A DNA stretch of 36,265 nucleotides, taken from the IMG/VR virus record IMGVR_UViG_3300009503_000580, positions 1 to 36,265 of that record. The stretch is one strand, 5' to 3'. The stretch comes from a virus. Under the pieces are notes generated by a model. That model did no database searches. It saw only the letters and a program-made list of their open reading frames with translations, and was not told the DNA's origin. The position numbers were made by a program, and so were the translations under genes. Shown piece after piece: positions 515 to 33,700 of this stretch. Numbering within the stretch: position 1 is the stretch's first letter; each line of letters opens with the position of its first letter.

Positions 515-856
515 ATGAGTGGAGTAAAGAAGCAATTAGTTAAAAGTGCGTACCTTGCACTTAAAGATTGCTTAAGTGCTTGGTTACGTATTGACATAAG
601 CAAAGAGGAAGAAGCGGAAGTCAGGGACACTTATAACTTCTTGTCGGAAGTCGTAGTTCTAATAGAAAGAGATGAAGCAGACCTGGAGAAGTTAGTGCAC
701 CAATTGTTAGCTAGCCGTAAAAACTATGCTACACAACTTCAGACGTTGAAAAAGAATGTAGAACAGAAGCAGATTCAGCATAAGATGGTAGATCAGCTTG
801 TTAAGAGCTACGAGACGTTGCTTCAACGAATCGATATGTTAAGGATGTCACGATGA
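515..856 (+). CDS. coiled-coil hypothetical protein, 113 aa
   Basis: No family recognised. The sequence is almost entirely helical. Residues about 45-110 show heptad-like spacing of Leu/Val with many Lys, Glu and Gln, typical of a coiled coil. The SD is ATGGAGG at 502-508. The stop overlaps the start of the Rad50-like gene by 4 bp (ATGA), so the two are probably co-translated. That makes a structural or accessory role with the Rad50/Mre11 pair possible, but this is inference from position only. Confidence 0.6.
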   Translation: MSGVKKQLVKSAYLALKDCLSAWLRIDISKEEEAEVRDTYNFLSEVVVLIERDEADLEKLVHQLLASRKNYATQLQTLKKNVEQKQIQHKMVDQLVKSYETLLQRIDMLRMSR

Positions 857-1977
857 AGCTTACTTTGAGGAATTTCCAGTGTCATAAGCATGCGGAGTTA
901 GAACTGAGTCCTCTAACGTTCTTAATAGGTCCAAGTAATACGGGTAAGAGTGCATACGTTCGTGCTATCGGATTTCTTACGGGTCAACTTTCGTTAGGCG
1001 CTAGCCGACTTGTCACTCGTGGACAGAAAACGATGTCGGTGAGCCTACAAACAGATTCACATATATACGAGCGGATGCTCGACAAAGACGGTGTGCACTG
1101 TAAGCTTGACGATACAGTGTACCCTCGAATGGGAGTTAACGTACCAGATGAGTTCACAAAACTCGCAACTATTCAGTTTCAGTTCGAGCCGTTCTTCTTA
1201 GTAACAGATGCACCATCTGATGTATTCAAAAAGATATCTACTGTACTGGATCTCGAGAAGTTGGATAATCTCACGAAATTGATTACATCTGACGTCAACG
1301 CTCTAAGATCCTCTTTGAAAGTAGACATTGAGTCTTATCAAGAACTTACACAACGCTTACATATTGTTGAGAACATTCACAATCAATATAGAGTACTAGA
1401 ACAGATTAAGTTCGCTACACTACTTTCGCTTACCAACGACTTTCGGAAGAGGCTGATCGATCTATATAGAACTAAACTTCAACTTCTCAAACAACTCTGG
1501 AAGACGCACGTATACTATATCTACACTAAGTTACTCTTTCTGCTGAAAGCACTCCAGCAGTTACGGTACTGGAAGACTATTGTACTAACGCAGAAGCCAC
1601 GATTGTTGAATCAGCTGTATGCCCACATAAAAGTGTTGCACGTCTACAAACTACGAATCTGGATCTATAGATGTTGTATGCTTATACATCTATTTGATCG
1701 AGTACAGAGTCTGATAAAAGCGATTATACACAGTCGAGTATTGTTAAACTTACGGAAACTACTGTTATATTTAGTCTACATAAAACAGCGTGAGAAATAT
1801 GTTGGCCTTCGACTTTCCTACGGAATTTACGGTTTATATTTACACTTGTTACGTCTAACTCAGACCGCTCAACTCGAACGGCTTGAGGATTTGATACAAA
1901 TCTGTGAGAAGCTCGCAACAATACGCAATAGAAGATGTCCTACGTGTGGACAGCAATTACCTGAGGTGCAAATATGA
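853..1977 (+). CDS. Rad50/SbcC-like ATPase, N-terminal half only (Walker A and zinc hook)
   Basis: Residues 1-145 form the N-terminal lobe of a Rad50/SbcC ATPase: LRNFQCHKHAELEL, then Walker A GPSNTGKS near residues 26-33, and a Q-loop-like QFQFEPFF near residue 117. Residues about 150-355 are a helical arm rich in Leu, Tyr, Arg and Lys. The protein stops just after a CPTCG zinc-hook motif (C362, C365). There is no ABC signature, Walker B or H-loop, so it cannot be a complete ATPase alone. The missing half matches the gene at 33152-33700. It lies two genes upstream of Mre11, its usual partner in end resection and in T4-type recombination-dependent replication (gp46/gp47). The arm is strongly basic between about residues 215 and 330, unlike ordinary Rad50 coiled coils; the other frames here are full of stops, so the frame is real. 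Confidence 0.8.
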   Translation: MKLTLRNFQCHKHAELELSPLTFLIGPSNTGKSAYVRAIGFLTGQLSLGASRLVTRGQKTMSVSLQTDSHIYERMLDKDGVHCKLDDTVYPRMGVNVPDEFTKLATIQFQFEPFFLVTDAPSDVFKKISTVLDLEKLDNLTKLITSDVNALRSSLKVDIESYQELTQRLHIVENIHNQYRVLEQIKFATLLSLTNDFRKRLIDLYRTKLQLLKQLWKTHVYYIYTKLLFLLKALQQLRYWKTIVLTQKPRLLNQLYAHIKVLHVYKLRIWIYRCCMLIHLFDRVQSLIKAIIHSRVLLNLRKLLLYLVYIKQREKYVGLRLSYGIYGLYLHLLRLTQTAQLERLEDLIQICEKLATIRNRRCPTCGQQLPEVQI

Positions 1978-2357
1978 ACTTTTCTCAAATTCTTAGACGT
2001 GCTATTGACGTGTTAAGACCTAAATATGTCTCACTCCAATTGGTAACTATAGGAAAGAGTAAGGTAGTGATACTTCCACCAACCGTTTCTGAATTCAAAC
2101 TACGATTGCTTGAGCTCAATATCATTTGGAATAAATTCTCTATTGTCTACGTGTGCTTACATCACGCGGAGTATGTAAAAGGTTTCGCAATACTATACAT
2201 GTGTGATGACGCCTTAATTCATAAATGCTCAAGATGGAAACTCTTTAGCGCCCATCTAACAGACGTTATCGTTCCGCTCTCAGCGATGACTCTTCAGTCA
2301 CTATATCCGACGTTGAAACATCAGCCATTAGGTATTCCTGTGGAGGACTTACTATGA
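1974..2357 (+). CDS. hypothetical protein between Rad50 half and Mre11, 127 aa
   Basis: No family recognised. The protein is mixed alpha/beta with hydrophobic strands (FSIVYVCLHHAEYV, FAILYMCDD) and several scattered Cys and His that do not form an obvious zinc motif. It overlaps the Rad50 half by 4 bp upstream and Mre11 by 4 bp downstream, so it is translated as part of the same unit. The operon position suggests a role with the nuclease complex; nothing in the sequence proves it. Confidence 0.55.
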   Translation: MNFSQILRRAIDVLRPKYVSLQLVTIGKSKVVILPPTVSEFKLRLLELNIIWNKFSIVYVCLHHAEYVKGFAILYMCDDALIHKCSRWKLFSAHLTDVIVPLSAMTLQSLYPTLKHQPLGIPVEDLL

Positions 2358-3151
2358 AGATAGGTTTCATAGGAGATCTACATTTACAGAAAGCTCAACC
2401 ACCTAGTAGAGCAGATGACTGGGTAGAGACGACATACCGCAAAATTAGTTGGCTGAATACTGTACCTGTAGACATTCTAGTCTGTACAGGAGATCTAGTA
2501 ACACAACGTCCTCTTACAGTATCTACACTTTTGTTTGCATTTCGTATTTTAGCACAAATTCAGAAACCGTTTTACTCGATTGTTGGCAACCACGATCAGA
2601 TCACGACGACTGATAGTGTATTGGATCTTGTGCCGTCTATACATTCGTTAGACGTAGTTGAAATAGACGATGTTGTTATATTTGGTGTCCCATATGGACA
2701 AACAGCCTATCCGGTTCCTGTACCAGATAGATTCAATATATTGGTGTTGCATGAGATGATTACTCCTGCGACGAAAGAGTTACTAGGCTGCTATCATACA
2801 CCAAAAGTGAAAGGCTTCGACTTATATATAGTTGGACACTATCACGAACCCTTTGTACTTACGACACCTGAAGGTAAAGATGTTATCAATCCTGGAGTAG
2901 TATTGAGAGGTCGAGCGGATGAGGCAGACATACAAAGTAAATTAGTTATCTTCGATACTGAAACAAAAAGTGTTGAATTTGTAGATATTCCGCAAGCTCG
3001 GAATGTCTTCGTAGAACGTGTTGAGACAGTACTCGAACACGTTGTGTACACATTACGAGATCTACAACATATTACACTATCTAATTGGCTAGAAGAAGCT
3101 CCAGAAGACATCAAACCTATCTTGATGGAGTATGTCATTAAAGTGAAATAA
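2354..3151 (+). CDS. Mre11/SbcD-like DNA exonuclease (metallophosphoesterase)
   Basis: All calcineurin-like phosphoesterase motifs are present in order: GDLHL (D8, H10), TGDLV (D47), GNHD (78-81), VLHE, VGHYHEP and NPGV. These bind the two Mn ions of Mre11/SbcD/T4 gp47, which processes DNA ends together with a Rad50-type ATPase. At 265 residues it is shorter than cellular Mre11; the catalytic domain is complete and the region after about residue 210 is a short cap or Rad50-binding segment. The SD GTGGAGG lies in the end of the previous gene, with a 4-bp overlap. Confidence 0.88.
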   Translation: MKIGFIGDLHLQKAQPPSRADDWVETTYRKISWLNTVPVDILVCTGDLVTQRPLTVSTLLFAFRILAQIQKPFYSIVGNHDQITTTDSVLDLVPSIHSLDVVEIDDVVIFGVPYGQTAYPVPVPDRFNILVLHEMITPATKELLGCYHTPKVKGFDLYIVGHYHEPFVLTTPEGKDVINPGVVLRGRADEADIQSKLVIFDTETKSVEFVDIPQARNVFVERVETVLEHVVYTLRDLQHITLSNWLEEAPEDIKPILMEYVIKVK

Positions 3152-3199
3152 AGAAGCAAATAGAAAATCGTATAGTAAGAGTTATGGAGGGACATTCTA

Positions 3200-3406
3200 A
3201 TGCAATATGCAAGCGTTGACAACGTTACTTTGTCTGTAGACGATTTGATAATGAAGCTAGGATCGTTGACAGTAGAGAAAATGGAATTGGAGAAGAGACT
3301 ACAAAATCTAACGAAGAAATACAACGAACTATCTGACATGTTAAATCAAGAGAGGTTGAAAGTAGCAAAATTAGAGGAGAAGTTGAATGATAGTAAGACT
3401 GAATAA
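3200..3406 (+). CDS. small coiled-coil protein, 68 aa
   Basis: No family recognised. Residues 20-66 form a continuous charged heptad pattern (VEKMELEKRL, LNQERLKVAKLEEKL), a clear coiled coil. The SD ATGGAGG at 3184 gives normal spacing to ATG 3200. It is placed just after Mre11 and before a membrane mini-protein. A structural or adaptor role is possible, but its function is unknown. Confidence 0.6.
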   Translation: MQYASVDNVTLSVDDLIMKLGSLTVEKMELEKRLQNLTKKYNELSDMLNQERLKVAKLEEKLNDSKTE

Positions 3407-3639: not shown

Positions 3640-4071
3640 ATGAGACTAAGAGTTATCGACCACTTCGATGCTGCACATCGTTTATTGCAGTATCAAGGTA
3701 AGTGTGCGAATCTACACGGACATACCTGGGTCGTAGAAGTAGGTATCGATATTGACATTCGTCAGATCACTTCCGTAGGCTTCGCAATCGACTTCGGAGA
3801 TCTCAAACTTATTGTGAAGAGTGTGTTAGAAGAATACGATCACGCGTTCCTTGTTAATAGGACTGATCCTATTTGTGCTAATATGAGCTCTACACGGTTA
3901 ATACAACTTGACGGAAATCCCACAGCAGAAACGCTTGCGATACAAATACTGAAAGACTTACGACAAGAACTAAGAGAGCGAGAGTTGACTGGAGTTACAG
4001 TCGCAGAAGTTACAGTTTGGGAATCTCCGAAAGCGGGCGTAACAGTCTACAATCGGGAGGTAGCAGAATGA
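3640..4071 (+). CDS. queD: QueD-like 6-carboxytetrahydropterin synthase
   Basis: This is a PTPS/QueD-fold enzyme of 143 residues. Zinc ligands H13, H26 and H28 are visible in DAAHRL and NLHGH, with the catalytic Cys22 just before. AIDFGDLK, YDHAFL and NPTAETLA follow, and TVWESP supplies the conserved Glu near residue 126. QueD converts dihydroneopterin triphosphate to 6-carboxytetrahydropterin, the second step toward preQ0. The SD AAGGAGG precedes ATG 3640. With GAT-QueC (4689), QueE (20059) and DpdA (19367) it forms a 7-deazaguanine pathway; no FolE is visible, so GTP cyclohydrolase may come from the host or lie outside the window. Confidence 0.9.
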   Translation: MRLRVIDHFDAAHRLLQYQGKCANLHGHTWVVEVGIDIDIRQITSVGFAIDFGDLKLIVKSVLEEYDHAFLVNRTDPICANMSSTRLIQLDGNPTAETLAIQILKDLRQELRERELTGVTVAEVTVWESPKAGVTVYNREVAE

Positions 4072-4410: not shown

Positions 4411-4689
4411 ATGCGAGTATATTGGAAAGTTAAGAACGATCCACGGGTAGACAAGAATTTTTGTCCTGCCTGTGGTACGACACTTACACATAACCTAATC
4501 CCGGCCTCTAAGGAGGCTAGCTGGCGATGCCGAAATTGCGGTTGGGAGGTAATAGCTCGACATCCTTTTCCAAGAGTATCTGAGGATATTGTAAGTTGCT
4601 ATGAATATCCTTGGTTGATTAAAGACAACGGAAAGACAGGATGGATCTCTCCAGAAGTAGAAGCGGAAGAGAAAGGAGGTAAGCTGTAA
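4411..4689 (+). CDS. zinc-ribbon protein, 92 aa
   Basis: A four-cysteine zinc ribbon is clear: FCPACG near residue 17 and WRCRNCGW near residue 43, with a short beta spacer. The C-terminal half (PWLIKDNGKTGWI) is not recognised. SD GGGGGGTG precedes ATG 4411. The stop overlaps the GAT-QueC start by 1 base, so it is tightly coupled to the deazaguanine genes. Small zinc ribbons often act in nucleic-acid or protein contacts; no specific role can be assigned. Confidence 0.6.
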   Translation: MRVYWKVKNDPRVDKNFCPACGTTLTHNLIPASKEASWRCRNCGWEVIARHPFPRVSEDIVSCYEYPWLIKDNGKTGWISPEVEAEEKGGKL

Positions 4690-6173
4690 TGTGCATGTTA
4701 CTTGGTTGGGCGGGAAAAGTACCTCTTCGCCCAAGTCACGAGTTTATACAATACATTGATAGACGCGGTAGAGATGCGTTTGGTGTTTACACACCAAAAA
4801 CAGGTAAAATTACAGCATTCTCAAAAGACGCGTTTCTAAACAAAGTTACGGATATAGAAGATGAAGTAGCTTTATTTGTAGGTAGAGCTGTTCCCGCGAC
4901 AGAGTATCACGGTCACAAATACATTAGCAGCAAAGACACTCAACCCTTCATAAAAGGTGACTGGGTTGTAACACATAACGGATTACTACATAATGACACT
5001 GTGCTCGGGAAGAAGTATAAGCTACGTCGTCCTACCAAAGTTGATTCTTTCGTTATTGCATCTCTTCTAGATCGTTTCACAGTATCAAATACGTCTGCTC
5101 CTGATACTGTGACTAAAGTATTGGATGAAATCGAAGGATCATACGCTCTTGCAATCTACAACTCCAAGCAAAATTATCTCGCACTAGTAACGAACTTTAT
5201 GCCACTTTACTATAAACTTACTAATGATACTATCTACTGGTCTTCACTTCCTATTGAAGATATTACAACACCTCTTGAGCCATATTCGGGACTCCATATT
5301 TTTTTAAATGAACCTTCTGGTATCAAAGTTTCTCCATTCACACTAAAGACAACTCTAGACTTTAATAAAGTTGGTGTTGTATGTAGTGGGGGTATGGATA
5401 GTGTAACCGCACTACGCCTCTATCAGGTTCTCGGTTTCGATGTTACACTTATTCATTTTAGCTATGGACAAGCAGCACAAGTCGTTGAGGATTATGTCAC
5501 CACACAGATCGCGGACACATACGGCATACGCAAAATAACGCTTGATGTACAAGATTTATTCAAGCATTTCACGAGTGTGCTACTAAAAGCTAAACAGATC
5601 CCCGACAAAGCAGCTAGACTACTTGATGCCGAAGGTACATACAGTTACGTTCCTGCCAGAAATCTCATCTTTGCAGCTATTGGTTTAGGAGTTTGTGAAG
5701 AGTTAGACCTCGGCCGTTTAGTTATATCTGGTAATTTAGATGATGGGGGTGGCTATCCAGATAACAATTACCCATTCTTCAAGTATCTCGACTACGTGAG
5801 TGCGTTATCACTTAATCAGCGACATAAGGTGAGATTTGAAGCACCTTTCGTACATCTAACGAAAAAAGAGATTTTAGAGATTGCATTTGCAACTGGTACA
5901 CCTCTTCACATGACTGCGAGTTGCTACTATCCTAAACTAGAGGAAGATAACAAGATAATATATTGCGGAAGTTGCGGGTGCGATAAGCTGAGAGTAGAGA
6001 GCTTTAAAGCTTTAGGTTATGTCGATCCGGTTAAGTATAGAATGTCACAGAAATGGGGAAGACGAAAAAGTCTATGGAAGCATCCGCAATGGGCGGATCG
6101 AGTGAACAATATTAACTTAAGAATGTTGGAGGCTGAGATTCCTTACTTCGAGTATTTAGACATCAAAAAATAA
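4689..6173 (+). CDS. GAT-QueC fusion: class II glutamine amidotransferase joined to 7-cyano-7-deazaguanine synthase
   Basis: Residues 1 to about 215 are a class II glutamine amidotransferase: Cys2 as N-terminal nucleophile (MCMLLGW), RGRDAFGV, HNGLLHND, EGSYALAIY. Residues about 228-494 are QueC: PP-loop CSGGMDS near 233, VPARN, YPDNNYPF, and the zinc cluster SCYYP ... CGSCGCDKLR followed by GYVDP. QueC makes preQ0 from 7-carboxy-7-deazaguanine. GAT-QueC fusions are known from archaea and phages, where the amidotransferase is linked to conversion of the nitrile to the amidine of archaeosine. All key residues are intact. The length fits two full domains. The start is supported by AAAGGAGG at 4674-4681. 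The likely product is a modified guanine for phage DNA, but the exact end product is inference. Confidence 0.88.
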   Translation: MCMLLGWAGKVPLRPSHEFIQYIDRRGRDAFGVYTPKTGKITAFSKDAFLNKVTDIEDEVALFVGRAVPATEYHGHKYISSKDTQPFIKGDWVVTHNGLLHNDTVLGKKYKLRRPTKVDSFVIASLLDRFTVSNTSAPDTVTKVLDEIEGSYALAIYNSKQNYLALVTNFMPLYYKLTNDTIYWSSLPIEDITTPLEPYSGLHIFLNEPSGIKVSPFTLKTTLDFNKVGVVCSGGMDSVTALRLYQVLGFDVTLIHFSYGQAAQVVEDYVTTQIADTYGIRKITLDVQDLFKHFTSVLLKAKQIPDKAARLLDAEGTYSYVPARNLIFAAIGLGVCEELDLGRLVISGNLDDGGGYPDNNYPFFKYLDYVSALSLNQRHKVRFEAPFVHLTKKEILEIAFATGTPLHMTASCYYPKLEEDNKIIYCGSCGCDKLRVESFKALGYVDPVKYRMSQKWGRRKSLWKHPQWADRVNNINLRMLEAEIPYFEYLDIKK

Positions 6174-9325: not shown

Positions 9326-10139
9326 CGAAGATGAGGTTGTATCGGCTACACTATACGGCATTACTAAATACATTAAAGATTTTTTAGCTGGTAAGTTTAT
9401 GGGAGTCCATAAACCGTTGCTAGCTAAATACATACGAACCGAAATATTGAACACACGACAGTGTCTACTTACCGTAGGACGAAACTGGTTCAATACCGTC
9501 GATATGTATGGAGACAACGACATTACTCTCGTACCAGATACTCACACTACAGATCCGTATTATTGTCTGCTACGAAAAGAGGTTGCTAGAGCTGTACTAA
9601 CATCGAGCAAATTAACGCCGAAACATAAAGCTCTCTTTATTTTGCTAAACGTCGGTTGGAGTTGGAGGGATTCATGTGAGTTGTGCAAAATCTTTAAAGT
9701 GAACAGTCAAGGCTTAAGTCAGCTTTGGCGAGAACTACAAAGTTATGTCAAAGAAGATCTCCTATTGCTGAGATCAAACAGATACTACGAGAGAAGACAA
9801 CGCCGGCAGATTCTCGTACGTTCGAAGAGTAAGTTACAACAGCTACGTAAGATGCTCTTAGATACATATGAGAAACTGCAAGCTACAAACGAGAAGTCCA
9901 GACTAAGAAAGAGGTTGAAAGCTATATACCGCGAAATAGCATACGTTTTAGAGACGCTCGCCGACAAATGCGAAGAGTTCAGAGATTATCATAACGCTTT
10001 CGTTTCTATCCTATCTGGAAGTGACTATGTTCATACAAATACGCTCTTTAAGATAGACGAAGTCATTGATCTTATAGATCCGACAATTGAGGATGATTAC
10101 GTACAATCACAGCTAAGAATAGGTGTAGAATGCAAGTGA
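9264..10139 (+). CDS. putative sigma-factor-like protein
   Basis: Residues about 18-55 (DEVVSATLYGITKYIKDFLAG ... LAKYIRTEILN pattern) resemble sigma-70 region 2. Residues about 117-165 (LTPKHKALFILLNVGWSWRD, then a helix-turn-helix) resemble region 4. The C-terminal part (residues 170-240) is a long basic coiled coil with no sigma counterpart. A phage sigma factor would redirect host RNA polymerase to phage promoters. SD AAGGAGG at 9250 precedes ATG 9264; it overlaps the upstream gene by 62 bp and the polymerase by 10 bp. Alternative: an unrelated HTH DNA-binding protein. Moderate to low confidence in function. Confidence 0.4.
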   Translation: MKKLLAWAQTVARNTETFPLDEDEVVSATLYGITKYIKDFLAGKFMGVHKPLLAKYIRTEILNTRQCLLTVGRNWFNTVDMYGDNDITLVPDTHTTDPYYCLLRKEVARAVLTSSKLTPKHKALFILLNVGWSWRDSCELCKIFKVNSQGLSQLWRELQSYVKEDLLLLRSNRYYERRQRRQILVRSKSKLQQLRKMLLDTYEKLQATNEKSRLRKRLKAIYREIAYVLETLADKCEEFRDYHNAFVSILSGSDYVHTNTLFKIDEVIDLIDPTIEDDYVQSQLRIGVECK

Positions 10140-12856
10140 AAGATATCAACAGGAAGATAATTTGTGGTCTTTGGTGGGCATTACTATTTAGGACGCCAGA
10201 TCCCACAAAACAGCCGCCGCATCCTCATGCTGAAGTTGACGGTACTACTCTTGCACGATCATACTTACGAGACTTACCGCAGAGAGATATTCTGGAGTTA
10301 CATCCTCCTACGGTTGAACTCGTTGCAAGTTTAGTGGACACCTACGACAAAGAACTTTGTTATAAGTGGTATCATCTCTTTAGAGAAGAAGTATGTAAAA
10401 AGTGTCCGTATTATGAGTTAGAGGATCAATGGGTAGGTAGTAGTTATACTAACAAAGATCGTCCGAGATTGATTGTCGTAGGACAAGCTCCTGGAGCCGA
10501 CGAAGTAGATGATGGGCGTCCGTTCGTAGGTCCAGCGGGTAAGTATTTGTGGAAACGTTTAGGAGAAATAAATGTCGTTAGAAGTGACATATATGTTACG
10601 AACTCAGTCAAATGCAGACCTCCGAAGGATGCTGAACCTACTACAGAAGCGTTAACTTGTTGTACACCACTCTTGTATGAAGAACTAAAACAGTTACCCG
10701 ACTTGCTTGTAATAGCAGCAGGTAAAGTTGCTGTGAGAGCTACTACTCATCTGAAAACGTTTAGAATTGACGACTATGCTGGCGGTTGTATAGACTCGCA
10801 GATCACTCACCACAATATATTCGTATTGAAACATCCAGCATCCGTTTTACGTTCTGGATCGTTATGGATTGACAGACAGTACAGAGATCATGTTAATCAG
10901 CTTCAACGAGTGCTATCTGGAGAAGAATTCAAACACTCACTACCTTCATTCGAAGTTGTAGATAGTCTTGCAAAATTTGATGAGTTCGAGCTGAAAGTTA
11001 GACAGCAGCCTATATGTGCTATAGATATAGAAACAACGGGATTAGGTTTCGAAGACGAGATTGTGTCTGTAGCAATAAGTAATAATTTAGGTACTTGGGT
11101 GTTCCCTGTTCTTACGCATCCTTATCTAATAGACAAACTAAGACAAGTCCTACCTACACTAAAACTAATCGCACACAACGCTATATTCGATATCTGCATG
11201 ATAAACTATAGGTGGGATCTAGAATGTGACGTATATTGGGATACAATGCAATTTCAACACTTACTTGACGAAGAAGGAGAGCTAGGGCTGAATATACTCG
11301 CTGTTCGTATGGTAGGTGCTCCTCCAGGTTTCAAAGAGAAAGGAGATAAGTTTTGGCGAATCAAAGATCTCGCTGCACATCTCAAAGAACACAAAGAAGA
11401 TTTAAGCACATTCTTGGAGTACAATGCTACTGACGCATACTATACTTATAAAGTTTATCTCGCGCAACAGAAACACCCAGAGTACGCCCACGTAATCAAT
11501 TTCCATAACATATTCACACTTCCTGTACTTAACATGTTCATCGATATCAATAAGTTTGGCGCTCCTATTGACGTATACCAGATGATAGAACTCAACAAAC
11601 ATTTCTCTACAGAGATCTCAAATCTCGAACAAGAATTATTTGCTATAGTAGGATCATCATTCAGGCATAGGAGTACTCAAGAACTAGCAAACGTATTGAG
11701 ATTATTAGGAGTTACAGAAGAGCAGACAGGTAAAACAGATACGGGTAGAATGAAGTTGACGCAGGACGTAATCGAGAAATTATCAGAAGCTGAAAACGAG
11801 AAAGTGGCACTCTTAGCTCAGAAAATACTTGAGATACGAAAGCTCGAAAAACTAAGAGATACATACATACGCCAATTGAGCAATTATATTTACACGAATG
11901 CATATACGAAAGTTCCTAGTGTCTCGCCTGTGTTTAAGCTACATGCATCTAAGACATATCGTATCAATACAGAGAATCCGAACATCCACAATATACCAAG
12001 AGGTTCTCAACTAAAGAAATTATTTGCTGCTCCTGAAGGATATGTCATTCTAGGATCAGACTACGAAAGTGCGGAAGCGTTTCACGCTGCAAGTATTAGT
12101 GGAGAATCGAAAGTAATTGAGTTTGTTCTAGATCCCACAAAAGATCAGCATAGATATACAGCTGCTCGCGTTTTTGGTATATCTGAAGATCAGGTAACAA
12201 AAGATCAGCGGACGACAGCAAAGCTTGTATGGTTTTGTTTACAATATGGTGGTACGGAACACGCCGTTGCTCGAGACTTGAACATCTCATATGAAGAGGC
12301 TATGAAAATTGTTAACGGGATCAGAAAGACGTATCCTAGACTTTTTCATACTCTCGATAGTTTTATTGCAGTAGCTAAAACAAATAAAAGATTAGTGAAT
12401 AGATTTGGAGCTGTTAGGAGATTCAAAATTTGGGAAGGACAATTTGCATCTTCGAATGCTAGACAAGCACTTAACTTTCCAATTCAAAGTGAAGTGTCTA
12501 TCTATTGTCATTTAGCAGCTTATGATCTACATCTTATTATGAAAGAAGTTGGCTTGGAGAATTGGAGAATCTTATTCACTATCCACGACGCTATTTACAC
12601 TCTCGTGAAAAAAGAGTTGGCAAGTCTGGCTGCTGCAATTATGAAGAAAGTGATGGAGCTACCTCGATATGGTATGTACCTACTAACAAGCCCTGAAGTT
12701 GGGCCTACTTGGTACGATTTACATCCTCTCGAAGGTACTGAGAAAGAGTTATACGATAGTTTCTTAGTCCAACCATTAGATGAATTAATTAGGAGGATAA
12801 TATTAGATGTCGAACGTGATACGAGTAACGAACTTAGAGTTTCTTACTACGTGTGA
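10130..12856 (+). CDS. DNA polymerase A with N-terminal uracil-DNA glycosylase domain and 3'-5' exonuclease
   Basis: Three domains are visible. Residues about 85-265: iron-sulfur-type uracil-DNA glycosylase, with the CKKCPYY pair, GQAPGADEVDDGRPFVGPAG, KCRPP, a later Cys of TCCTP and KHPASVLRSG. Residues about 295-460: DEDDy exonuclease, IDIETTGL (near 302), HNAIFD and YNATDAYYTY. Residues about 500-908: family A polymerase, motif A GSDYESAE (Asp near 643), motif B RTTAKLVWFCLQYGG and motif C TIHDAIYT (D820). The usual Glu after the catalytic Asp in motif C is Ala. A UDG-like N-terminus on a phage PolA is known, as I recall, from SPO1-type phages. ATG 10130 lies inside the end of the sigma-like gene. 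The dUTPase at 13526 fits a shared uracil-exclusion role. Confidence 0.88.
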   Translation: MQVKDINRKIICGLWWALLFRTPDPTKQPPHPHAEVDGTTLARSYLRDLPQRDILELHPPTVELVASLVDTYDKELCYKWYHLFREEVCKKCPYYELEDQWVGSSYTNKDRPRLIVVGQAPGADEVDDGRPFVGPAGKYLWKRLGEINVVRSDIYVTNSVKCRPPKDAEPTTEALTCCTPLLYEELKQLPDLLVIAAGKVAVRATTHLKTFRIDDYAGGCIDSQITHHNIFVLKHPASVLRSGSLWIDRQYRDHVNQLQRVLSGEEFKHSLPSFEVVDSLAKFDEFELKVRQQPICAIDIETTGLGFEDEIVSVAISNNLGTWVFPVLTHPYLIDKLRQVLPTLKLIAHNAIFDICMINYRWDLECDVYWDTMQFQHLLDEEGELGLNILAVRMVGAPPGFKEKGDKFWRIKDLAAHLKEHKEDLSTFLEYNATDAYYTYKVYLAQQKHPEYAHVINFHNIFTLPVLNMFIDINKFGAPIDVYQMIELNKHFSTEISNLEQELFAIVGSSFRHRSTQELANVLRLLGVTEEQTGKTDTGRMKLTQDVIEKLSEAENEKVALLAQKILEIRKLEKLRDTYIRQLSNYIYTNAYTKVPSVSPVFKLHASKTYRINTENPNIHNIPRGSQLKKLFAAPEGYVILGSDYESAEAFHAASISGESKVIEFVLDPTKDQHRYTAARVFGISEDQVTKDQRTTAKLVWFCLQYGGTEHAVARDLNISYEEAMKIVNGIRKTYPRLFHTLDSFIAVAKTNKRLVNRFGAVRRFKIWEGQFASSNARQALNFPIQSEVSIYCHLAAYDLHLIMKEVGLENWRILFTIHDAIYTLVKKELASLAAAIMKKVMELPRYGMYLLTSPEVGPTWYDLHPLEGTEKELYDSFLVQPLDELIRRIILDVERDTSNELRVSYYV

Positions 12857-22325: not shown

Positions 22326-22550
22326 ATGTATACAGAATCAACAACAATATTACAATACGGACCCGGATCTAATTACGGTTATGTATGTGGTGGATATACG
22401 CACGGTAATACTAACGACAGTATCTCCACTATAGACCGCTTTCAGTTTCCATTCGATAGTGGTACCGCAAATTATGTAGGTAATTCGAGTGGAAGTAGAG
22501 ATGCATTAAGCGCTACCGATGGAGTAGACTTTACGACAATGTTTGTATGA
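22326..22550 (+). CDS. one-unit member of the VCGG/IDRFQFPFD repeat-protein family (orphan cassette)
   Basis: The 74 residues contain the family N-cap (QYGPGSNYGYVCGG), one variable loop, one framework unit (STIDRFQFPFDSGT ... GSRDALSA) and the C-cap (TDGVDFTTMFV). It is exactly what remains if all internal units are deleted between repeats. It lies 4.2 kb before the main array, separated by helicase genes. It has a weak SD (GGAGAACGTAT). Its last framework stretch GSRDALSA is shared with the C-terminus of the gene at 28178, hinting at recombination. It may be a relic or a donor cassette. Confidence 0.7.
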   Translation: MYTESTTILQYGPGSNYGYVCGGYTHGNTNDSISTIDRFQFPFDSGTANYVGNSSGSRDALSATDGVDFTTMFV

Positions 22551-22572
22551 TCAAAATAAAGGAGGGACATAA

Positions 22573-22755
22573 ATGACATATGAACATATGAAGAATCTGA
22601 AAAAAATATTGAGTGTCTTACTCAAAGACGAAGAGGTCGAGCAAGAACAAATACCGATCACAGAAAAACAACCTACGCAACTTAACTTGTTTGACGACAT
22701 AGAGAACGAAAAAGAAGTACATAGAAAAACCAATGAAGATCGAAGTCAGAGATGA
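22573..22755 (+). CDS. small protein with sliding-clamp-binding motif, 60 aa
   Basis: The protein is short, charged and probably disordered apart from an N-terminal helix. Residues 36-40 are QLNLF followed by DD, matching the bacterial beta-clamp-binding pentapeptide QL-x-LF. It overlaps the downstream helicase by 23 bp and has a strong SD (GGAGGGAC). A peptide that recruits or blocks the host DnaN clamp, or tethers the helicase to it, is the obvious hypothesis. No family recognised. Confidence 0.6.
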   Translation: MTYEHMKNLKKILSVLLKDEEVEQEQIPITEKQPTQLNLFDDIENEKEVHRKTNEDRSQR

Positions 22756-24028
22756 GAACTTTGCAGTACTAAAAGAGCATACTAAAGAGGAATGGACACA
22801 GATTAGGTCTCTTCTCTCTTATAAAACTCAAACGTTTATAAGAGGAAGATGGACTGCTATTCCTCACTACTTGATTCACGGTAAGACGAAAGTCTTTCCT
22901 ACAGGCCTACTGCACATCATAACAAGTAAGTTCAAAGTAGAGATAGCCGATCTTCGTCCTAAACGCATACCAATTACTCTACCCGAAAATATTCCTCTCG
23001 ATACATACCAGAAACAGATAATGCGTGATGCCTTACGCTATCAACGTGCTATCGTTAATGTACCTACAGGTGCTGGTAAGACGTATACATTCTCAACGTT
23101 TGCGGCATATATTGATAGACCAACTATCATAATCACTCCTACTCAAGAGATACTTAGTCAAGTTGTTGAGCATATTACAAAATACACAACAGACATACGA
23201 GTTATGTGGAACACATCTCACACTACTTTTGATAAACGTATAATAGTAACAACAAGTGGCACACTGAACTCTCGATTCGACTTCCTCAAAGAAGAAGGCA
23301 AAAAGATAGAAGTAATGATTAGTGATGAAGCTCATTTCTACGGAGCCGATTCGTTCTTCAGAATAAGCCATCTGTTTCCGAATGCCTGGATTCGTTTAGG
23401 CTTCAGCGGTACACCAATAGGTCGTTCTGATAATGCAGACTTAAGAACACTAAGTGTGTTCTCTCCCCATATCGTAACCTATCAAGGAGAAATAGAAAGA
23501 ATAGTACCCGTAAAAGTTTTTCTAGTAGATTACTGTAGCAACGCAAGATGGAGTGATCCCGAAGATTACGAACAACTACTGGAAGACGTAGAGCGTCAAG
23601 AAGCGATTGTGGAGCTAATAAATATCCTCAGGAAAGAAAAGTTGACACCTTATCTCGTATTTGTTGATAGAATCAAATACGGAGAAACACTTTCAGAAAA
23701 GCTTTCGATTCCGCTCATTACATCTACCTCACTCGAGCGAGACACAATCTTCGACGATCTCAGAAACGAAAAGTTAGAAGGTATCGTAACTACAATTGGA
23801 TGGATAGGTTTAGACATACCTAATCTGAAAGCAGTAGTGAATACTTCACGAGAGACTACGTCTATTAGTCTAGGACAAAAAGCTGGCCGTGTCAGACGTA
23901 AAATGGGAAAGGATGTAGGCATCGTATTCGACTTTCTAGATCGTGGAAGACTACCAAGTAGATGGGCCCGTAAGAGGCGAAAGACATACGAAAGCTTAGG
24001 ATTCGAAGTAATACAAACAAAACTTTAA
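22733..24028 (+). CDS. SF2 DNA helicase, UvsW-like
   Basis: Superfamily 2 motifs in order: Q-motif-like LDTYQKQIM, motif I VPTGAGKT (near residues 109-116), TIIITPT, motif II ISDEAH (near 197), FSGTPIG (motif III), VFVDRIKYGE (IV region), and VRRKMGKD with QKAGRVR (VI). The N-terminal 80 residues carry a small extra domain. UvsW-type helicases resolve branched recombination intermediates and R-loops and switch T4 from origin-driven to recombination-driven replication. This fits the RecA, UvsY-like and Rad50/Mre11 set here. The start overlaps the clamp-motif gene. Confidence 0.8.
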   Translation: MKIEVRDENFAVLKEHTKEEWTQIRSLLSYKTQTFIRGRWTAIPHYLIHGKTKVFPTGLLHIITSKFKVEIADLRPKRIPITLPENIPLDTYQKQIMRDALRYQRAIVNVPTGAGKTYTFSTFAAYIDRPTIIITPTQEILSQVVEHITKYTTDIRVMWNTSHTTFDKRIIVTTSGTLNSRFDFLKEEGKKIEVMISDEAHFYGADSFFRISHLFPNAWIRLGFSGTPIGRSDNADLRTLSVFSPHIVTYQGEIERIVPVKVFLVDYCSNARWSDPEDYEQLLEDVERQEAIVELINILRKEKLTPYLVFVDRIKYGETLSEKLSIPLITSTSLERDTIFDDLRNEKLEGIVTTIGWIGLDIPNLKAVVNTSRETTSISLGQKAGRVRRKMGKDVGIVFDFLDRGRLPSRWARKRRKTYESLGFEVIQTKL

Positions 24029-27136: not shown

Positions 27137-27203
27137 TTGTAACTAATAAGATAATAAACAAAACACAAAAACGTACAAAAAATCTCCAAAATGAGGAGTG
27201 TAT

Positions 27204-28133
27204 ATGTGTACAAACTCAAATCTAACGACACAGCGATATGGACCTGGATCAAATTATGGTTATGTATGTGGAGGATCACGTAGTAGTAACTATTTCTCTA
27301 CCATAGATCGCTTCCAGTTTCCATTTGATAGTGGTACAACAAATCAGGTGGGCAATCTGAGTGGAAGTAGAAAAGAGTCAAGTGCTAATAATAGTAGTAC
27401 ATACGGTTATGTATGCGGAGGATATAGTAGTCAAATCCTCTCAGTCATAAACCGCTTTCAGTTTCCATTTGATAGCGGTACTGCAAACCACGTAGGTAAT
27501 TTGTGTAGGAACAGAAAACAACTATGCGCCAATAATAGCAGTACACATGGTTATGTATGTGGTGGAACAGAAATCTTCTGGATTTCTACTATAGATCGCT
27601 TTCAATTTCCGTTTGATGAAGGTACAGCAAATCTGATAGGCAATTTGAGTAGACGTAGAAGTTGGTCGAGTGCTAACAATAGTAGTACATACGGTTATGT
27701 ATGTGGTAGTTGGTATAGCATCTTAGACCGTTTCCAATTTCCATTCGATAATGGCTCAGTAAGTCAGGTAGGCAATTTAAGTGAGGATAGAACAGGCTTA
27801 AGTACTAACAATAGTAGTACGTACGGATATGTATGTGGTGGGCATAGTAGTAATGGCATTCTTTCTGCCATAGATCGCTTTCAGTTTCCATTTGATAGTG
27901 GTACAGCAAATCAAGTGGGTAATTTGAGTGGAAGTAGAACGTTATTAAGTGCTAATAATAGTAGCACACACGGTTACGTATGTGGTGGATGGATTGGTGA
28001 TCCTCTCTCCATTATAGACTGCTTTCAATTTCCATTCGATAGTGGTACAGCAAGTCAGATAGGCAATTTGAGTGGAAGTAGAAACGACTTGAGTGCTATA
28101 GATGGTGTAGACTTCGTGACAATGTTTGTATGA
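27204..28133 (+). CDS. repeat-family protein, six units, intact
   Basis: N-cap, six framework units and C-cap form one continuous frame of 309 codons. The six loops differ in sequence and length. Unit 4 has one of the shortest spacers in the array (GYVCGS then WYSILDR). ATG 27204 follows AGGAG at 5-nt spacing; the GTG at 27198 is part of the SD. Six units could close a small propeller or form a fibre segment. It is likely an exported virion or adhesion protein, but no signal peptide is seen. Function is inference from family resemblance. Confidence 0.75.
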   Translation: MCTNSNLTTQRYGPGSNYGYVCGGSRSSNYFSTIDRFQFPFDSGTTNQVGNLSGSRKESSANNSSTYGYVCGGYSSQILSVINRFQFPFDSGTANHVGNLCRNRKQLCANNSSTHGYVCGGTEIFWISTIDRFQFPFDEGTANLIGNLSRRRSWSSANNSSTYGYVCGSWYSILDRFQFPFDNGSVSQVGNLSEDRTGLSTNNSSTYGYVCGGHSSNGILSAIDRFQFPFDSGTANQVGNLSGSRTLLSANNSSTHGYVCGGWIGDPLSIIDCFQFPFDSGTASQIGNLSGSRNDLSAIDGVDFVTMFV

Positions 28134-28177
28134 ATAAGAGACAACAAATTAAGTCTCTAAAAATAGAGAGGTGTATA

Positions 28178-29170
28178 ATGTATATAGCAGATGCAAATTC
28201 AACAACACAACAATATGGACCAGGATCAAATTATGGTTATGTATGCGGAGGATATAGTGGAGACGGAAATAAAGCATCTTGGTACTCTATTATAGACCGT
28301 TTCCAATTTCCGTTTGATAGTGGTACTGCAAATAAAGTTGGTAACTTAAGTAGACGCAGACGTGGCTCAAGCGCTAATAATAGTAGTACGTACGGGTATG
28401 TATATGGTGGAGACAGTGGATATAATGATACTACGGTTTCTACTATAGACCGCTTTCAGTTTCCATTTGATAGCGGTACTGCAAATAAAGTTGGTAATTT
28501 AAGCAAACGTAGGAGTGCATCAGCCGCCAATAATAGTAGCACGTACGGTTACGTATGTGGCGGTGATTACGGATACTACAATAACTATCTCTTTATCATA
28601 GACCGCTTCCAATTTTCATTCGATAGTGGAACTACAAATCAAGTAGGCAACCTAAGTGGAAGTAGAAGTGACTTGAGTGCTAACAATAGTAGCACATACG
28701 GTTATGTATGCGGAGGATTTAGGGGTGGATACCAAATCGTAGACGTGTACTCCACTATAGACCGCTTCCAATTTCCATTCGATAGTGGTACTGCAAATCA
28801 AGTAGGTAATTTGAGCGTAAGTAGAGAATGGTTAAGTGCTAACAACAGTAGCACACACAGCTATGTATGTGGTGGGTATAATCATTATAATGGCACTCTC
28901 TCTACTATAGATCGCTTTCAGTTTCCTTTTGATAGTGGCACTGCAAATCATGTAGGTAATTTGAGTAGGAATAACAGTTGCTCAAGTGCTAACAATAGTA
29001 GCGTATATGGTTATGTATGTGGTGGTGGAAGTGATGATTTCAGTTCTACTATAGACCGCTTCCAGTTTCCGTTTGATAGTAGCATTACAAGTTATGTAGG
29101 TAATTTAAGTGGAAGTAGGGATGCATTAAGCGCTGTAGATGGTGTAGACTTTGTAACGATGTTTGTATGA
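28178..29170 (+). CDS. repeat-family protein, six units, intact
   Basis: Start ATG 28178 follows AGAGGTG. Six framework units with six different loops (YSGDGNKASWY, DSGYNDTTV, DYGYYNNYL, FRGGYQIVDVY, YNHYNGTL, GSDDFS), then the C-cap. Loop residues are rich in Gly, Tyr, Asn, Asp and Ser, as in binding loops. The spacer after it matches the spacer before it in part, showing whole-gene duplication. The last unit shares GSRDALSA with the orphan at 22326. Confidence 0.75.
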   Translation: MYIADANSTTQQYGPGSNYGYVCGGYSGDGNKASWYSIIDRFQFPFDSGTANKVGNLSRRRRGSSANNSSTYGYVYGGDSGYNDTTVSTIDRFQFPFDSGTANKVGNLSKRRSASAANNSSTYGYVCGGDYGYYNNYLFIIDRFQFSFDSGTTNQVGNLSGSRSDLSANNSSTYGYVCGGFRGGYQIVDVYSTIDRFQFPFDSGTANQVGNLSVSREWLSANNSSTHSYVCGGYNHYNGTLSTIDRFQFPFDSGTANHVGNLSRNNSCSSANNSSVYGYVCGGGSDDFSSTIDRFQFPFDSSITSYVGNLSGSRDALSAVDGVDFVTMFV

Positions 29171-29212
29171 ATAATAAGAGACAATATTTACTAAGTATCT
29201 AAAAAAATGTAT

Positions 29213-29719
29213 ATGTATACAGAATCGACAGCACAACGATACGGTCCGGGGTCTAACTATGGTTACGTATATGGCGGATGGGATAGCTCTCACATTTTCT
29301 CTACCATAGACCGCTTCCAATTCCCATTTGATAGTGGTACGGCAAGTCATGTAGGTAATTTGAGTGGAAGCAGAGAATGGCTAAGTGCTAACAATAGTAG
29401 CACATACGGTTATGTATGTGGAGGAACTTCAGTCTTCTCATGGATCTCTACCATAGACCGCTTCCAATTTCCATTTGATGATGGTACTACAAATCGGGTA
29501 GGCAATTTGAGTGAAAGTAGAAGCGATTTGAGTGCTAATAATAGTAGCACATACGGTTATGTATGCGGAGGATGGAATAAGAGTGACAATTTCTCTATTA
29601 TAGATCGCGTTCAATTTCCATTCGATGGTGGTACTACAAACTACGTAGGTGATTTGAGTGGAAGAAGAAGTGCGCTGAGTGCTACAGATGGCGTAGACTT
29701 CGTAACAATGTTTGTGTAA
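29213..29719 (+). CDS. repeat-family protein, three units, no ribosome-binding site
   Basis: The frame is intact (N-cap, three units, C-cap), but the SD found before every main-array sibling is missing. The bases before the start read CTAAAAAAATGTAT where relatives have a GAGG block, so about 10 bases seem to be deleted. ATG 29207 is an alternative start two codons earlier. Translation would be poor unless coupled to the upstream gene 37 bp away. Its third loop, WNKSDN, recurs in unit 6 of the gene at 30844. Confidence 0.65.
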   Translation: MYTESTAQRYGPGSNYGYVYGGWDSSHIFSTIDRFQFPFDSGTASHVGNLSGSREWLSANNSSTYGYVCGGTSVFSWISTIDRFQFPFDDGTTNRVGNLSESRSDLSANNSSTYGYVCGGWNKSDNFSIIDRVQFPFDGGTTNYVGDLSGRRSALSATDGVDFVTMFV

Positions 29720-29782
29720 TTGTAAGCTAACAAAACAACAAACAAAAAACGTACAAAAAATCTCCAAAATGGAGGGCGTAAT

Positions 29783-30781
29783 ATGCAAAATCCAACAACA
29801 CAACAATATGGACCAGGATCTAATTATGGTTATGTATGTGGCGGATCACGCGGATATAGTTCTTACTCTACTATAGACCGCTTCCAATTTTCATTCGATA
29901 GTGGTACTGCGAATAAAGTTGGCAACTTAAGTAGACGTAGATATGACTCAAGTGCTAACAATAGTAGTACGTACGGATATGTATGCGGAGGAATTGCAGT
30001 CACACGAACTTTCGTCTTATGGACCTCAGCCTCATGGACCTCTATCATAGACCGCTTTCAGTTTCCATTTGATGAGGGTACAACAAATTATGTAGGCAAT
30101 TTGTGTAGACTTAGATGCTGGTCGGGAGCTAATAATAGTAGCACACACGGATATGTAAGCGGAGGATATAATAGTAACTACTATCTCGCTACTATAGACC
30201 GCTTCCAGTTTTCGTTTGATAGTGGTACTGCAAATCAAATAGGTAATTTAAGTGGAAGTAGAGAACGGGTTAGTGCCAACAATAGTAGTACACATGGTTA
30301 TGTATGCGGAGGATATAGTCGTAACAATCTCTCTACTATAGACAGATTCCAGTTTCCATTCGATAGTGGTACTGCAGATTTTGTGTGTAAGTTAAGTAGA
30401 AGTAGAGAGAGCTTAAGTGCTAACAATAGTAGTACGTACGGTTATGTATACGGCGGATGGAGTGTAAGCTGTGGTCACGTCCCTATCATAGACCGCTTCC
30501 AATTTCTATTCGATGATGGTGTTGCAAGTCAGGTAGGTGATTTGAGTGGGAGTAGAAGCTGGTCGGGCGCTAATAATAGTAGCACACACGGATATGTATG
30601 CGGAGGATATTATAGTTTCCAGATGCATCAGGGTAGTCTCGACTGCTACCACTACTCTACTATAGATCGCGTCCAATTCCCATTCGATGGTGGTACTGCA
30701 AATTATGTAGGCAATTTGAGTGGAAAAAGAAGTGCGCTGAGTGCTACAGATGGCGTAGACTTCGTAACAATGTTTGTGTAA
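29783..30781 (+). CDS. repeat-family protein, six units, intact
   Basis: ATG 29783 follows ATGGAGGG. Six units, including two of the longest loops in the array (IAVTRTFVLWTSASWTS in unit 2 and YYSFQMHQGSLDCYHY in unit 6). The N-cap is shortened at its start (MQNPTTQQ). The C-terminal unit carries the variant IDRVQFPFDGGT shared with the gene at 29213, pointing to gene conversion between neighbours. Otherwise the framework is constant. Confidence 0.75.
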   Translation: MQNPTTQQYGPGSNYGYVCGGSRGYSSYSTIDRFQFSFDSGTANKVGNLSRRRYDSSANNSSTYGYVCGGIAVTRTFVLWTSASWTSIIDRFQFPFDEGTTNYVGNLCRLRCWSGANNSSTHGYVSGGYNSNYYLATIDRFQFSFDSGTANQIGNLSGSRERVSANNSSTHGYVCGGYSRNNLSTIDRFQFPFDSGTADFVCKLSRSRESLSANNSSTYGYVYGGWSVSCGHVPIIDRFQFLFDDGVASQVGDLSGSRSWSGANNSSTHGYVCGGYYSFQMHQGSLDCYHYSTIDRVQFPFDGGTANYVGNLSGKRSALSATDGVDFVTMFV

Positions 30782-30843
30782 TTGTAAAGCTAATAAAACA
30801 ATAAACAAAACGTATAAGAATCTCTAAAATGGAGAGCGTAATA

Positions 30844-31795
30844 ATGTATACAGACTCAAATTCAACAGCACAACGATATGGACCAGGATCTAACTATGGT
30901 TACGCATGTGGAGGTTGGGATAGCTATAACCGTCTCTCTACTATAGACCGCTTTCAGTTTCCATTCGATAACGGTACCACAAATCAAGTAGGTAATTTGA
31001 GGGAGAGTAGATTTGCTTCAAGTGCTAACAATAGTAGTACATACGGATATATATATATGTGGTGGTAGTCGTATCTCTACTATAGATCGCTTCCAGTTTC
31101 CGTTCGATAGTGGTACCACAAATCAGGTAGGCAATCTGAGCGAAGATAGAAACAGACTATGTGCCAACAATAGTAGCACACGCGGATATGTATACGGAGG
31201 ATGGAATAGCGGTTATAGCAGTCATAACGATCTCTCTATCATAGACCGCTTTCTGTTTCCATTCGATAGTGGTACTGCAAAACATATAGGCAATCTGAGC
31301 GAAAACAAAAGCAGACTATGTGCTAACAACAGTAGCACACACGGATATGTATGTGGCAGTGGTAGTTGCAACTCTACCATAGACCGCTTCCAGTTTCCAT
31401 TTGATGATGGTACAGCAAATTATGTAGGTAACTTGAGTGGAAGCAGAGGTTGGCTAAGTGCTAACAACAGTAGTACATATGGTTACGTATGTGGTGGAAT
31501 TGATAGTAGTTATTACCCCTCCTCTACTATAGACCGCTTTCAGTTTCCATTTGATAGTGGTACAGCAAATCAAGTAGGTAATTTGAGTGGACGTAGAGCG
31601 TTCCTGAGTGCCAATAATAGTAGCATACACGGATATGTATGCAGCGGATGGAATAAGAGTGATAATCTCTCTACTATAGACCGCTTTCAGTTTCCATTCG
31701 ATAGTGGAACTACAAATCAAGTGGGCAACTTAAGTGGAAGTAGAAGCGACTTGAGTGCTATAGATGGTGTAGACTTTGCGACAATGTTTGTGTAA
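30844..31795 (+). pseudogene. repeat-family gene split by an (AT)6 frameshift; six units if repaired
   Basis: Reading from ATG 30844, the first unit and N-cap are normal. At 31047-31058 the sequence has (AT)6 where siblings have TATGTATGT, adding 4 bases and shifting the frame so that translation ends at TAG 31066-31068. In the shifted frame five more units and the C-cap follow to 31795. Losing two AT repeats, or gaining one, would restore the frame. The location at the start of a loop is suggestive of a slippage switch. It could also be ordinary decay or a read error. Confidence 0.75.
31047..31058 (+). repeat. (AT)6 dinucleotide tract inside coding frame
   Basis: Twelve bases of AT alternation replace the TAT-GTA-TGT codons of the unit consensus. 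The tract makes the gene out of frame by +1. Four or seven AT units would put it back in frame. This is the classic form of a phase-variable dinucleotide repeat, though short. Confidence 0.85.
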
Positions 31796-31882: not shown

Positions 31883-31904
31883 AAGAAAAAGTAAGAGGAA
31901 CAAT

Positions 31905-32896: not shown

Positions 32897-32916
32897 TAAA
32901 AAGTAAGAGGTACAAA

Positions 32917-33138
32917 GTGAAAAAGTTCAGAGTAATAAGAGTGCACATAATAGGTGAACGTACTGTATATAAAAATCCTACGCGTATGTACAAGTTTCTC
33001 ATAGACCCAAATGGACTTGAGGCATTTGTAGTCCTAAAAGACGAAGATGGAAAAATGGACATAGAGCTTGCTACAGATATACACTACGACTACTCACTTC
33101 TCAAGACAGAAGAAGGATTGTTTGCAGTTAAGAAATAG
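32917..33138 (+). CDS. small hypothetical protein, 73 aa, GTG start
   Basis: No family recognised. Strand-rich with basic N-terminus (KKFRVIRVHIIG) and charged loops (KDEDGKMDIEL). GTG 32917 follows AAGAGG. It ends 13 bp before the Rad50 C-half gene and is probably co-transcribed with it. Confidence 0.5.
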   Translation: MKKFRVIRVHIIGERTVYKNPTRMYKFLIDPNGLEAFVVLKDEDGKMDIELATDIHYDYSLLKTEEGLFAVKK

Positions 33139-33151
33139 TGCTGGAGGAAAA

Positions 33152-33700
33152 ATGTATAAAGATCTTACGATTTATCTCAATCATCTGAGAACACAAACGA
33201 ATGAGCTATCCACGAGAATCCAACAAACGCAAGAACTGATGGAGAAACTACAAAAAGCTGCCGACTATCTCAAAGCTGTAAAAACAAATATAATCAAAGA
33301 GACAATCGAGATATCAACTTCGATCGTTAACTCTCTTATACAAATACTCGGGCCAGAGTATAGTTTCACTGCAACTATCGAAGAAGACAAATTGAAGTTC
33401 AAGATCCTAAAGAATGGTATTGAGTTCGATCCGAAGTACGAACTTGGGGGTGGAGTCTTAGATCTCATAAGTTTGGGTCTTAGACTTAGTCTCTGGGCTA
33501 TCTCTTCTAGAGCACCGTTGTTAGTACTCGATGAGCCTTTACGATATCTCTCCCGCGAGTATAAGCCAGCAGTAACTAACTTCTTGTCCCAATTATGCCA
33601 AACGCTTGATTTACGTATACTCATCATAACACATGATCCCGAGTTAATAACTGAATCTGAGAACGTCATCGTCTACAGTACTAGAAATCGCGAAAACTAA
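33152..33700 (+). CDS. Rad50/SbcC-like ATPase, C-terminal half only
   Basis: The protein starts with a short coiled coil (residues 1-50) and then has the C-terminal ATPase lobe: signature-type LGGGVLDLISLGLRL (98-111), Walker B LLVLDEP (123-129) with catalytic Glu128, D-loop near 133 and H-loop ITHD (His161). There is no Walker A anywhere in 182 residues, and no zinc hook. ATG 33152 is chosen because GGAGG lies just upstream. It complements the gene at 853-1977, which has Walker A and hook but none of these. Its arm is about 50 residues against about 200 in the N-half. Alternatively it partners a Walker A protein elsewhere. Confidence 0.8.
   Translation: MYKDLTIYLNHLRTQTNELSTRIQQTQELMEKLQKAADYLKAVKTNIIKETIEISTSIVNSLIQILGPEYSFTATIEEDKLKFKILKNGIEFDPKYELGGGVLDLISLGLRLSLWAISSRAPLLVLDEPLRYLSREYKPAVTNFLSQLCQTLDLRILIITHDPELITESENVIVYSTRNREN

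Follow-up and report, generated by a model that had tools for sequence, protein, structure and literature searches.

The window analyzed in this work is the whole of the linear viral record IMGVR_UViG_3300009503_000580 (positions 1-36,265; 36,265 bases), and it carries, on the plus strand and separated by 31,174 bases, two genes whose products resemble the N-terminal and the C-terminal half of a Rad50-like ATPase. The product of the first gene (853-1977, 374 amino acids (aa)) comprises an N-lobe with Walker A (GPSNTGKS at residue 26) and a Q-loop region (QFQFE, in the context QFQFEPFF, at residue 108, identified by inspection), followed by an arm and a C-terminal CPTC hook at residue 362, with 9 residues behind it. 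The product of the second gene (33152-33700, 182 aa) comprises a short helix, a degenerate GGG signature (LGGGV), Walker B (LLVLDEP), a D-loop with Ser (YLSRE) and an H-loop (ITHD), and the motif scan revealed neither Walker A nor CxxC in it. A preliminary description of this DNA had proposed that a Rad50/SbcC ATPase is split here into two complementary genes about 31 kb apart, with Walker A, Q-loop and zinc hook in one and signature, Walker B, D-loop and H-loop in the other. Both open reading frames (ORFs) are indeed intact and complementary, and the motifs ascribed to the N-half are all present; for the C-half, the assignment of Walker B and the H-loop and the lack of Walker A and hook hold, while the [ST]GG[EQ] signature is absent and the D-loop Asp is replaced by Ser.

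Pfam identified the N-half by AAA_15 (39.9 bits) and AAA_23 (35.8 bits), both above the cut-off, and its residues 338-371 align to positions 402-435 of the archaeal Rad50 model NF041034 (E-value 3.4e-7, far under the curated cut-off), which we read as the hook region. The C-half matches the C-terminal chains of Pyrococcus Rad50 (3qkr_B and 1ii8_B, E-value 1.2e-7) and positions 709-867 of 878 in PRK03918 (E-value 6e-9, again far under the curated cut-off), and thus the two halves cover complementary parts of Rad50 models. A near-identical stretch is found in a second record, the 99,356-bp viral contig IMGVR_UViG_3300005573_000071, in which the window starts at about base 62,109; the N-half region is 99.967% identical and free of gaps, and the C-half region is 99.947% identical with 2 gap openings over 13,118 columns. 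The possibility that the N-half is a product of a frameshift or mis-assembly is ruled out by this gap-free copy and by the frame 853-1977 being open, with the other two frames packed with stops. The ATG of the C-half at 33152 is preceded by GGAGG.

The presumed partner of the two halves is an Mre11/SbcD-like nuclease encoded downstream of the N-half (2354-3151, plus strand, 265 aa; Metallophos, 45.6 bits; phrog_100, E-value 1.5e-14; motif residues aligned), and the Mre11 profile matches nothing else in the 99-kb contig. A second complete Rad50, which the preliminary description had named as telling against a split, was found neither in the window (one match of AAA_23) nor in the 99-kb contig (one match of phrog_15167), both of which are classed as linear and may be fragments.

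The tblastn searches against 50,697 phage records returned three records for each window protein, and these together with their relatives led to five further phages: Bacillus phage vB_BboS-125 (B125), Microbacterium phage Magritte, Tunturiibacter phage Tunturi_5, uncultured phage LR745208 and Microcystis phage Mvi-JY20. Each of the five encodes the halves in two different genes, as is the case for all 41 N/C pairs compared in this work (39 distinct N-half and 36 distinct C-half sequences). Their spacing varies from 821 bases in B125, 1,211 in Mvi-JY20 and 6,268 in LR745208 to 92,903 bases along the record (38,621 across its ends) in Magritte and 107,212 by the shorter way in Tunturi_5. As in the window, an Mre11-like gene is present in Magritte, Tunturi_5, LR745208 and Mvi-JY20. 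B125 contains an Mre11/SbcD-like ORF at about 22423-23403 (11019-11999 in our locus L014; phrog_100, E-value 3e-21), which falls in an unannotated interval of the deposited record.

Single-protein scans with each of the two window proteins matched only the near-duplicate 99-kb contig, and scans with the C-halves of Tunturi_5 and Mvi-JY20 gave no relatives. The IMG/VR scan with the C-half of B125 yielded 27 loci (B125 included), all with the same-strand order of N-half, a gene for a small coiled-coil protein, C-half, Mre11-like gene and UvsW-like helicase. A scan of GTDB contigs added nine loci (Sutcliffiella, three from Paenibacillus, Brevibacillus, Moorella and three metagenome-assembled genomes), and there the N-half, small coil, C-half and Mre11 genes occur in that order without exception. 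Across these 36 loci with the Firmicutes-type C-half, 247-2,932 bases lie between the two halves. Phages from several bacterial groups thus share this break, which looks like the mark of a working two-chain repair machine, not of a broken gene. As to how it arose, an ancestral rad50 may have been cut by the insertion of a homing gene at the hook, with the split fixed later; a gene resembling the AP2-domain gene of B125 does lie between the N-half and the coil gene in 7 of the 27 IMG/VR loci, yet in the other 20 it is undetected at an E-value of 1e-3 and the halves are nevertheless separate, with the coil gene between them. We consider such an origin unlikely; it bears on the origin and not on the function of the split, and is compatible with the two halves working as a two-chain ATPase.

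According to simple patterns, Walker A is present in 41/41 N-halves and 0/41 C-halves, Walker B and the H-loop in 41/41 C-halves, and CxxC in none of the C-halves; the strict Q-loop pattern failed in several relatives. A single CxxC is located 5-18 residues from the C-terminus in 40 of the 41 N-halves, i.e. the break lies at the hook, where zinc binding is predicted. The unequal arms, from which the preliminary description had anticipated a geometry unlike that of known Rad50, are therefore a shared feature of the relatives.

The whole-record census included 26 viral records (the 99-kb contig, the five further phages and 20 IMG/VR contigs). The C-half profile made exactly one match in each of them, and AAA_23 identified one N-half per record, above the cut-off in 25 cases and below it in Tunturi_5. 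The open frames of the N-halves span 360-531 aa, where the start was taken as the first possible start codon, so that some are too long or too short (the one from L039 seems short). No full-length Rad50 form was seen with these two profiles in any of the 26 records. AAA_23 made three additional weak matches, in a 405-aa frame of the 99-kb contig (covering 16 profile positions), in a 446-aa frame of Tunturi_5 (PP885688.1, 214162-214287, E-value 0.0045) and in a 429-aa frame of LR745208, which coincides with an ORF read as RecA-like.

Of 398 genomes sampled evenly across the phylum of Moorella stamsii, 65 have a C-half match at an E-value of 1e-10 or lower; a specificity check of this search in nine genomes revealed, beyond the known loci, a 1,198-aa frame as the sole extra match (E-value 6.7e-4). 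All 20 loci retrieved from genomes of the phylum contain the N-half, coil and C-half genes, with most N-halves cut by the end of the locus; one of them is the Moorella locus already counted. In 3 of the 65 genomes the C-half match falls within an ORF of 684-700 aa (L073, 5652-7754, minus strand; L074, 4264-6318, plus strand; L075, 5583-7670, minus strand) that encodes Mre11, the N-lobe and the C-lobe in a single chain without arm or hook, and the fused relatives for which the preliminary description had suggested a search do exist. PHROGs assigned SbcD to residues 1-91 of these proteins, the N-half family (lobe only) to 327-497 and the C-half family to a region extending up to residue 680; each possesses one Walker A (GES[NG]QGKS), Walker B and the GGG signature, and CxxC is absent from all three. 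The fusion gene is directly upstream of addB in each case, with addA next (by model in two, by eye in L073). The SbcC model TIGR00618 found no match at an E-value of 0.001 in the three genomes, while it matched two known-positive control genomes; this absence is not unusual by itself, as 25/41 genomes of the phylum have no match at 1e-10.

The three fusions are the strongest evidence that Mre11, the N-half and the C-half would act together, and they suggest that the arm and the hook are dispensable for part of the work. They also bear on the possibility that the halves are two unrelated ATPase fragments, namely a hook-bearing DNA-binding protein and an independent regulatory protein that do not form one head. 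Assembly of the halves is deduced from sequence, and distances of 31-107 kb along the record separate the two genes in Magritte, the window and Tunturi_5, which would suit such an explanation; yet one of each half is present in 26/26 records, the halves are adjacent in most relatives, their motifs are complementary, and both are joined with Mre11 in all three fusions, so that we regard it as improbable.

Phylogenetic trees of the N-lobe and C-lobe were calculated for 16 split, 3 fused and 10 full-length proteins (including E. coli SbcC, T4 gp46 and T5 D13; 7 of 20 TIGR00618 loci were kept, and truncated or duplicate rows were omitted). The split and fused proteins are separated from the full-length ones with ultrafast bootstrap support of 100 when both lobes are combined; the single-lobe trees give 99 (N-lobe) and 100 (C-lobe), and the fusions nest inside the split set. 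After the addition of RecN, SMC, RecF and two other ATPases as outgroups (with four Firmicutes-type split rows omitted, and with a sample that did not include archaeal or eukaryotic Rad50), the split and fused proteins still form one clade, with a support of 99 on the unrooted tree (83 printed after re-rooting).

Taken at the level of motifs, gene partnership and phylogeny, the two genes most probably encode a two-chain Rad50-like ATPase partnered with the phage Mre11-like nuclease. We propose that the N-half would provide the N-lobe (Walker A and Q-loop), the arm and the hook, and the C-half the C-lobe (signature loop, Walker B and H-loop) with a short root helix, and that one of each would assemble in trans into one ATPase head. 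Such a two-chain head can form, as the N and C segments of Pyrococcus Rad50 are separate chains in the PDB entries 1f2u/1f2t, 1ii8 and 3qkr. Two heads on an Mre11 dimer, with ATP bound between them, would then constitute the usual ATP-gated machine for processing of DNA ends, and the tips of two N-halves could be joined by a zinc ion shared at the hook. The arm of the Firmicutes-type proteins would be built of helical repeats of about 47 residues contributed by the N-half alone, packed on itself and ending in the CxxC hook. The geometric difficulty raised in the preliminary description would disappear, because the C-half need not descend the whole arm. The machine would likely serve phage recombination and replication by processing DNA ends and hairpins, in line with the RecA-like gene and the DEAD-type helicase gene found between the two halves in the window.

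Between residue 179 and the hook (or the C-terminus, in Magritte) the N-halves span 136-328 residues, with 183 in the window. In 14 Firmicutes-type arms a repeat was detected at a lag of 47 (z 25 relative to 40 block shuffles, a value inflated by the relatedness of the rows), along with its harmonic at 94; this repeat may explain the short coil of the C-half. By raw score only, the arms of LR745208 and Tunturi_5 show peaks at 44 and 38, respectively, and the lag analysis gave no clear period for the window arm. AlphaFold2 models were calculated with alignments of N-halves from 27 of the 36 loci, near-duplicates being omitted. The Moorella N-half was modeled with helices of 27-63 residues separated by short breaks (mean pLDDT 70), and the window N-half, with less certainty, with helices of 10-56 residues (mean pLDDT 64); the arm could be either a zig-zag bundle or a kinked rod. 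Foldseek matched the models, with low TM-scores, to heads of Rad50, SMC, RecF and RecN; one model has Smc6 as its top match, the other a cohesin head.

The small coil protein (75-101 aa in most relatives) is predicted to form a helix, a turn that often reads GVTP and a second helix, and may brace the arm or its root. In B125 and Moorella it belongs to phrog_18563 (function unknown); in Mvi-JY20, LR745208 and Tunturi_5 it was assigned by position and inspection, with the Mvi-JY20 protein giving no phrog_18563 match. The search for this gene in Magritte produced only a weak match within a 347-aa frame (E-value 5e-4).

Several observations weigh against a Rad50-like two-chain ATPase. The Rad50_zn_hook domain scored 13.1 bits on the window N-half, under the Pfam cut-off of 24.3, and the top PDB sequence matches of this protein are Smc6 chains (residues 2-44, E-value 5e-5), with Rad50 reaching only 0.54. 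The N-half of Magritte lacks the CxxC hook and possesses one Walker-B-like stretch (IMVDE). The canonical ABC signature [ST]GG[EQ] is found in none of the 41 C-halves, which exhibit GGG (39), GGA (1) or GHG (1), and the D-loop Asp is replaced by Ser in 39 of them; the signature Ser is retained in the aligned full-length forms, and the ATP chemistry may differ as a consequence of both losses. The AlphaFold2 models of the N-halves are weak (pTM 0.31 and 0.33), the deep nodes that place the clade relative to SbcC, RecN, SMC and RecF have supports of 41-48, and the coil profile matched nothing in the 99-kb contig of the window. Finally, the 36 Firmicutes-type loci include many close relatives, and they were all collected by similarity to one C-half and are not independent. 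We rejected a strict filing of the family as Rad50/SbcC because two defining features are lacking (the signature with the D-loop Asp, and both lobes in one chain) and because of the support for the deep nodes; the lineage is Rad50-like in anatomy and partner, judging by its sequences, and may or may not descend from Rad50 proper.

That an intact rad50 was broken in this phage and its pieces drifted apart, at least one of them becoming non-functional, would accommodate the 31 kb between the halves and the degenerate signature and D-loop, but it is very improbable, given that both frames are intact in two records, the C-half retains its ribosome site, the same break separates intact halves in 41/41 pairs and the same motif changes are found throughout the clade.

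As to the other genes in the window, a 127-aa ORF (1974-2357, plus strand) without a family match bridges the N-half and Mre11 genes in the same gene run, overlapping the former at its end and the latter at its start, and a 113-aa ORF (515-856, plus strand) overlaps the N-half start and is a possible coiled-coil partner, with a non-significant similarity to the small coil gene (E-value 2.8). Among all window ORFs, the coil profile scored best with 33726-34328 (E-value 0.08) and next with a 68-aa ORF past the Mre11 gene (3200-3406, plus strand, E-value 0.15, non-significant), which, from its position only, might correspond to the small coil gene. Region 10130-12856 is one 908-aa ORF with uracil-DNA glycosylase, 3'-5' exonuclease and family A DNA polymerase domains. 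A QueD-like protein (PTPS; 3640-4071), a glutamine amidotransferase-QueC fusion (4689-6173) and a radical SAM protein, possibly QueE (20059-20688), could, in our reading, form a 7-deazaguanine DNA-modification set. Five consecutive ORFs in region 27198-31795 (starting at 27198, 28130, 29207, 29783 and 31013) are built of repeats like YGYVCGG...FQFPFDSGTANQVGNLSGSR; they have no Pfam match, and the single one tested corresponds to phrog_19111 (function unknown).

Rad50 is nearly universal, and its layout is usually taken as fixed: one folded-back chain with both lobes at one end and the hook at the other. A natural lineage with a two-chain head, cut at the hook, and with the arm and hook dropped in fusions offers ready-made experiments on the purpose of the coil and the hook; it would also provide sensible names for three PHROG families, and points out an Mre11 gene omitted from the annotation of B125. 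With slightly less than even confidence, we consider that these proteins constitute a separate deep lineage of SMC-like ATPases, with a two-gene head, an autonomous helical-repeat arm ending in the hook and a Gly-rich loop that substitutes for the ABC signature serine, and that re-fusion with Mre11 gave rise to a single-chain end-processing enzyme without an arm, encoded beside addAB in some bacterial chromosomes without a recognizable SbcC.

The preliminary description knew of no report of such an arrangement, and we found no description of a split Rad50/SbcC in the full-text literature searched, a body that leaves bioRxiv preprints and most subscription papers outside its scope. Look-ups of the relevant terms in the reports on the Lake Elmenteita phages, including B125 (PMC6375668), and on Magritte (PMC11663251) gave no occurrence; elsewhere, SbcC/SbcD is described as nearly universal among jumbo phages (PMC7824862), and hinge-less SMC variants are described (PMC12153180). 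As far as these searches show, the two-gene Rad50-like system is widespread and has not been named as a system. In PHROGs its components are filed as three unrelated families, phrog_16465 ("exonuclease") for the N-half, phrog_15167 ("ATPase") for the C-half and phrog_18563 for the small coil protein.

Mre11/Rad50 fusions of Mimivirus, plasmids and others have been described (accessible part of PMC3175470), with Mre11 preceding Rad50 in one chain, an order shared by the three fusions of this work; Mimivirus R555, though, has 1,351 aa and a coil, whereas the present fusions have 684-700 aa and neither arm nor hook. For the fusions of Anaerostipes and Bacillus phage 0305phi8-36, the same text states that one NTPase segment was not observed, and these are perhaps split cases; that part of the source contains no discussion of a C-half with a gene of its own.

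Among the known systems, the closest is Rad50/SbcC with Mre11/SbcD (E. coli SbcCD, T4 gp46/gp47, T5 D13/D12), with which the phage proteins share the N- and C-lobe motifs, the CxxC hook (40/41 pairs), the Mre11-type partner and the recombination setting. They differ in being encoded by two genes cut at the hook, with the lobes not united in one chain by an antiparallel coil, in a C-half whose N-terminus offers just a short helical stretch, in the loss of [ST]GG[EQ] and the mostly Ser-substituted D-loop Asp, in their separate clade, and in the three fusions in which the lobes are joined without an arm. The catalytic domain of Pyrococcus furiosus Rad50 (1f2t/1f2u, 1ii8, 3qkr) resembles the proposed phage pair in building one head from distinct N and C chains. 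There, the two chains are a laboratory construct, with the coil removed and the segments produced together, whereas in the phage the two chains are encoded by the genome.

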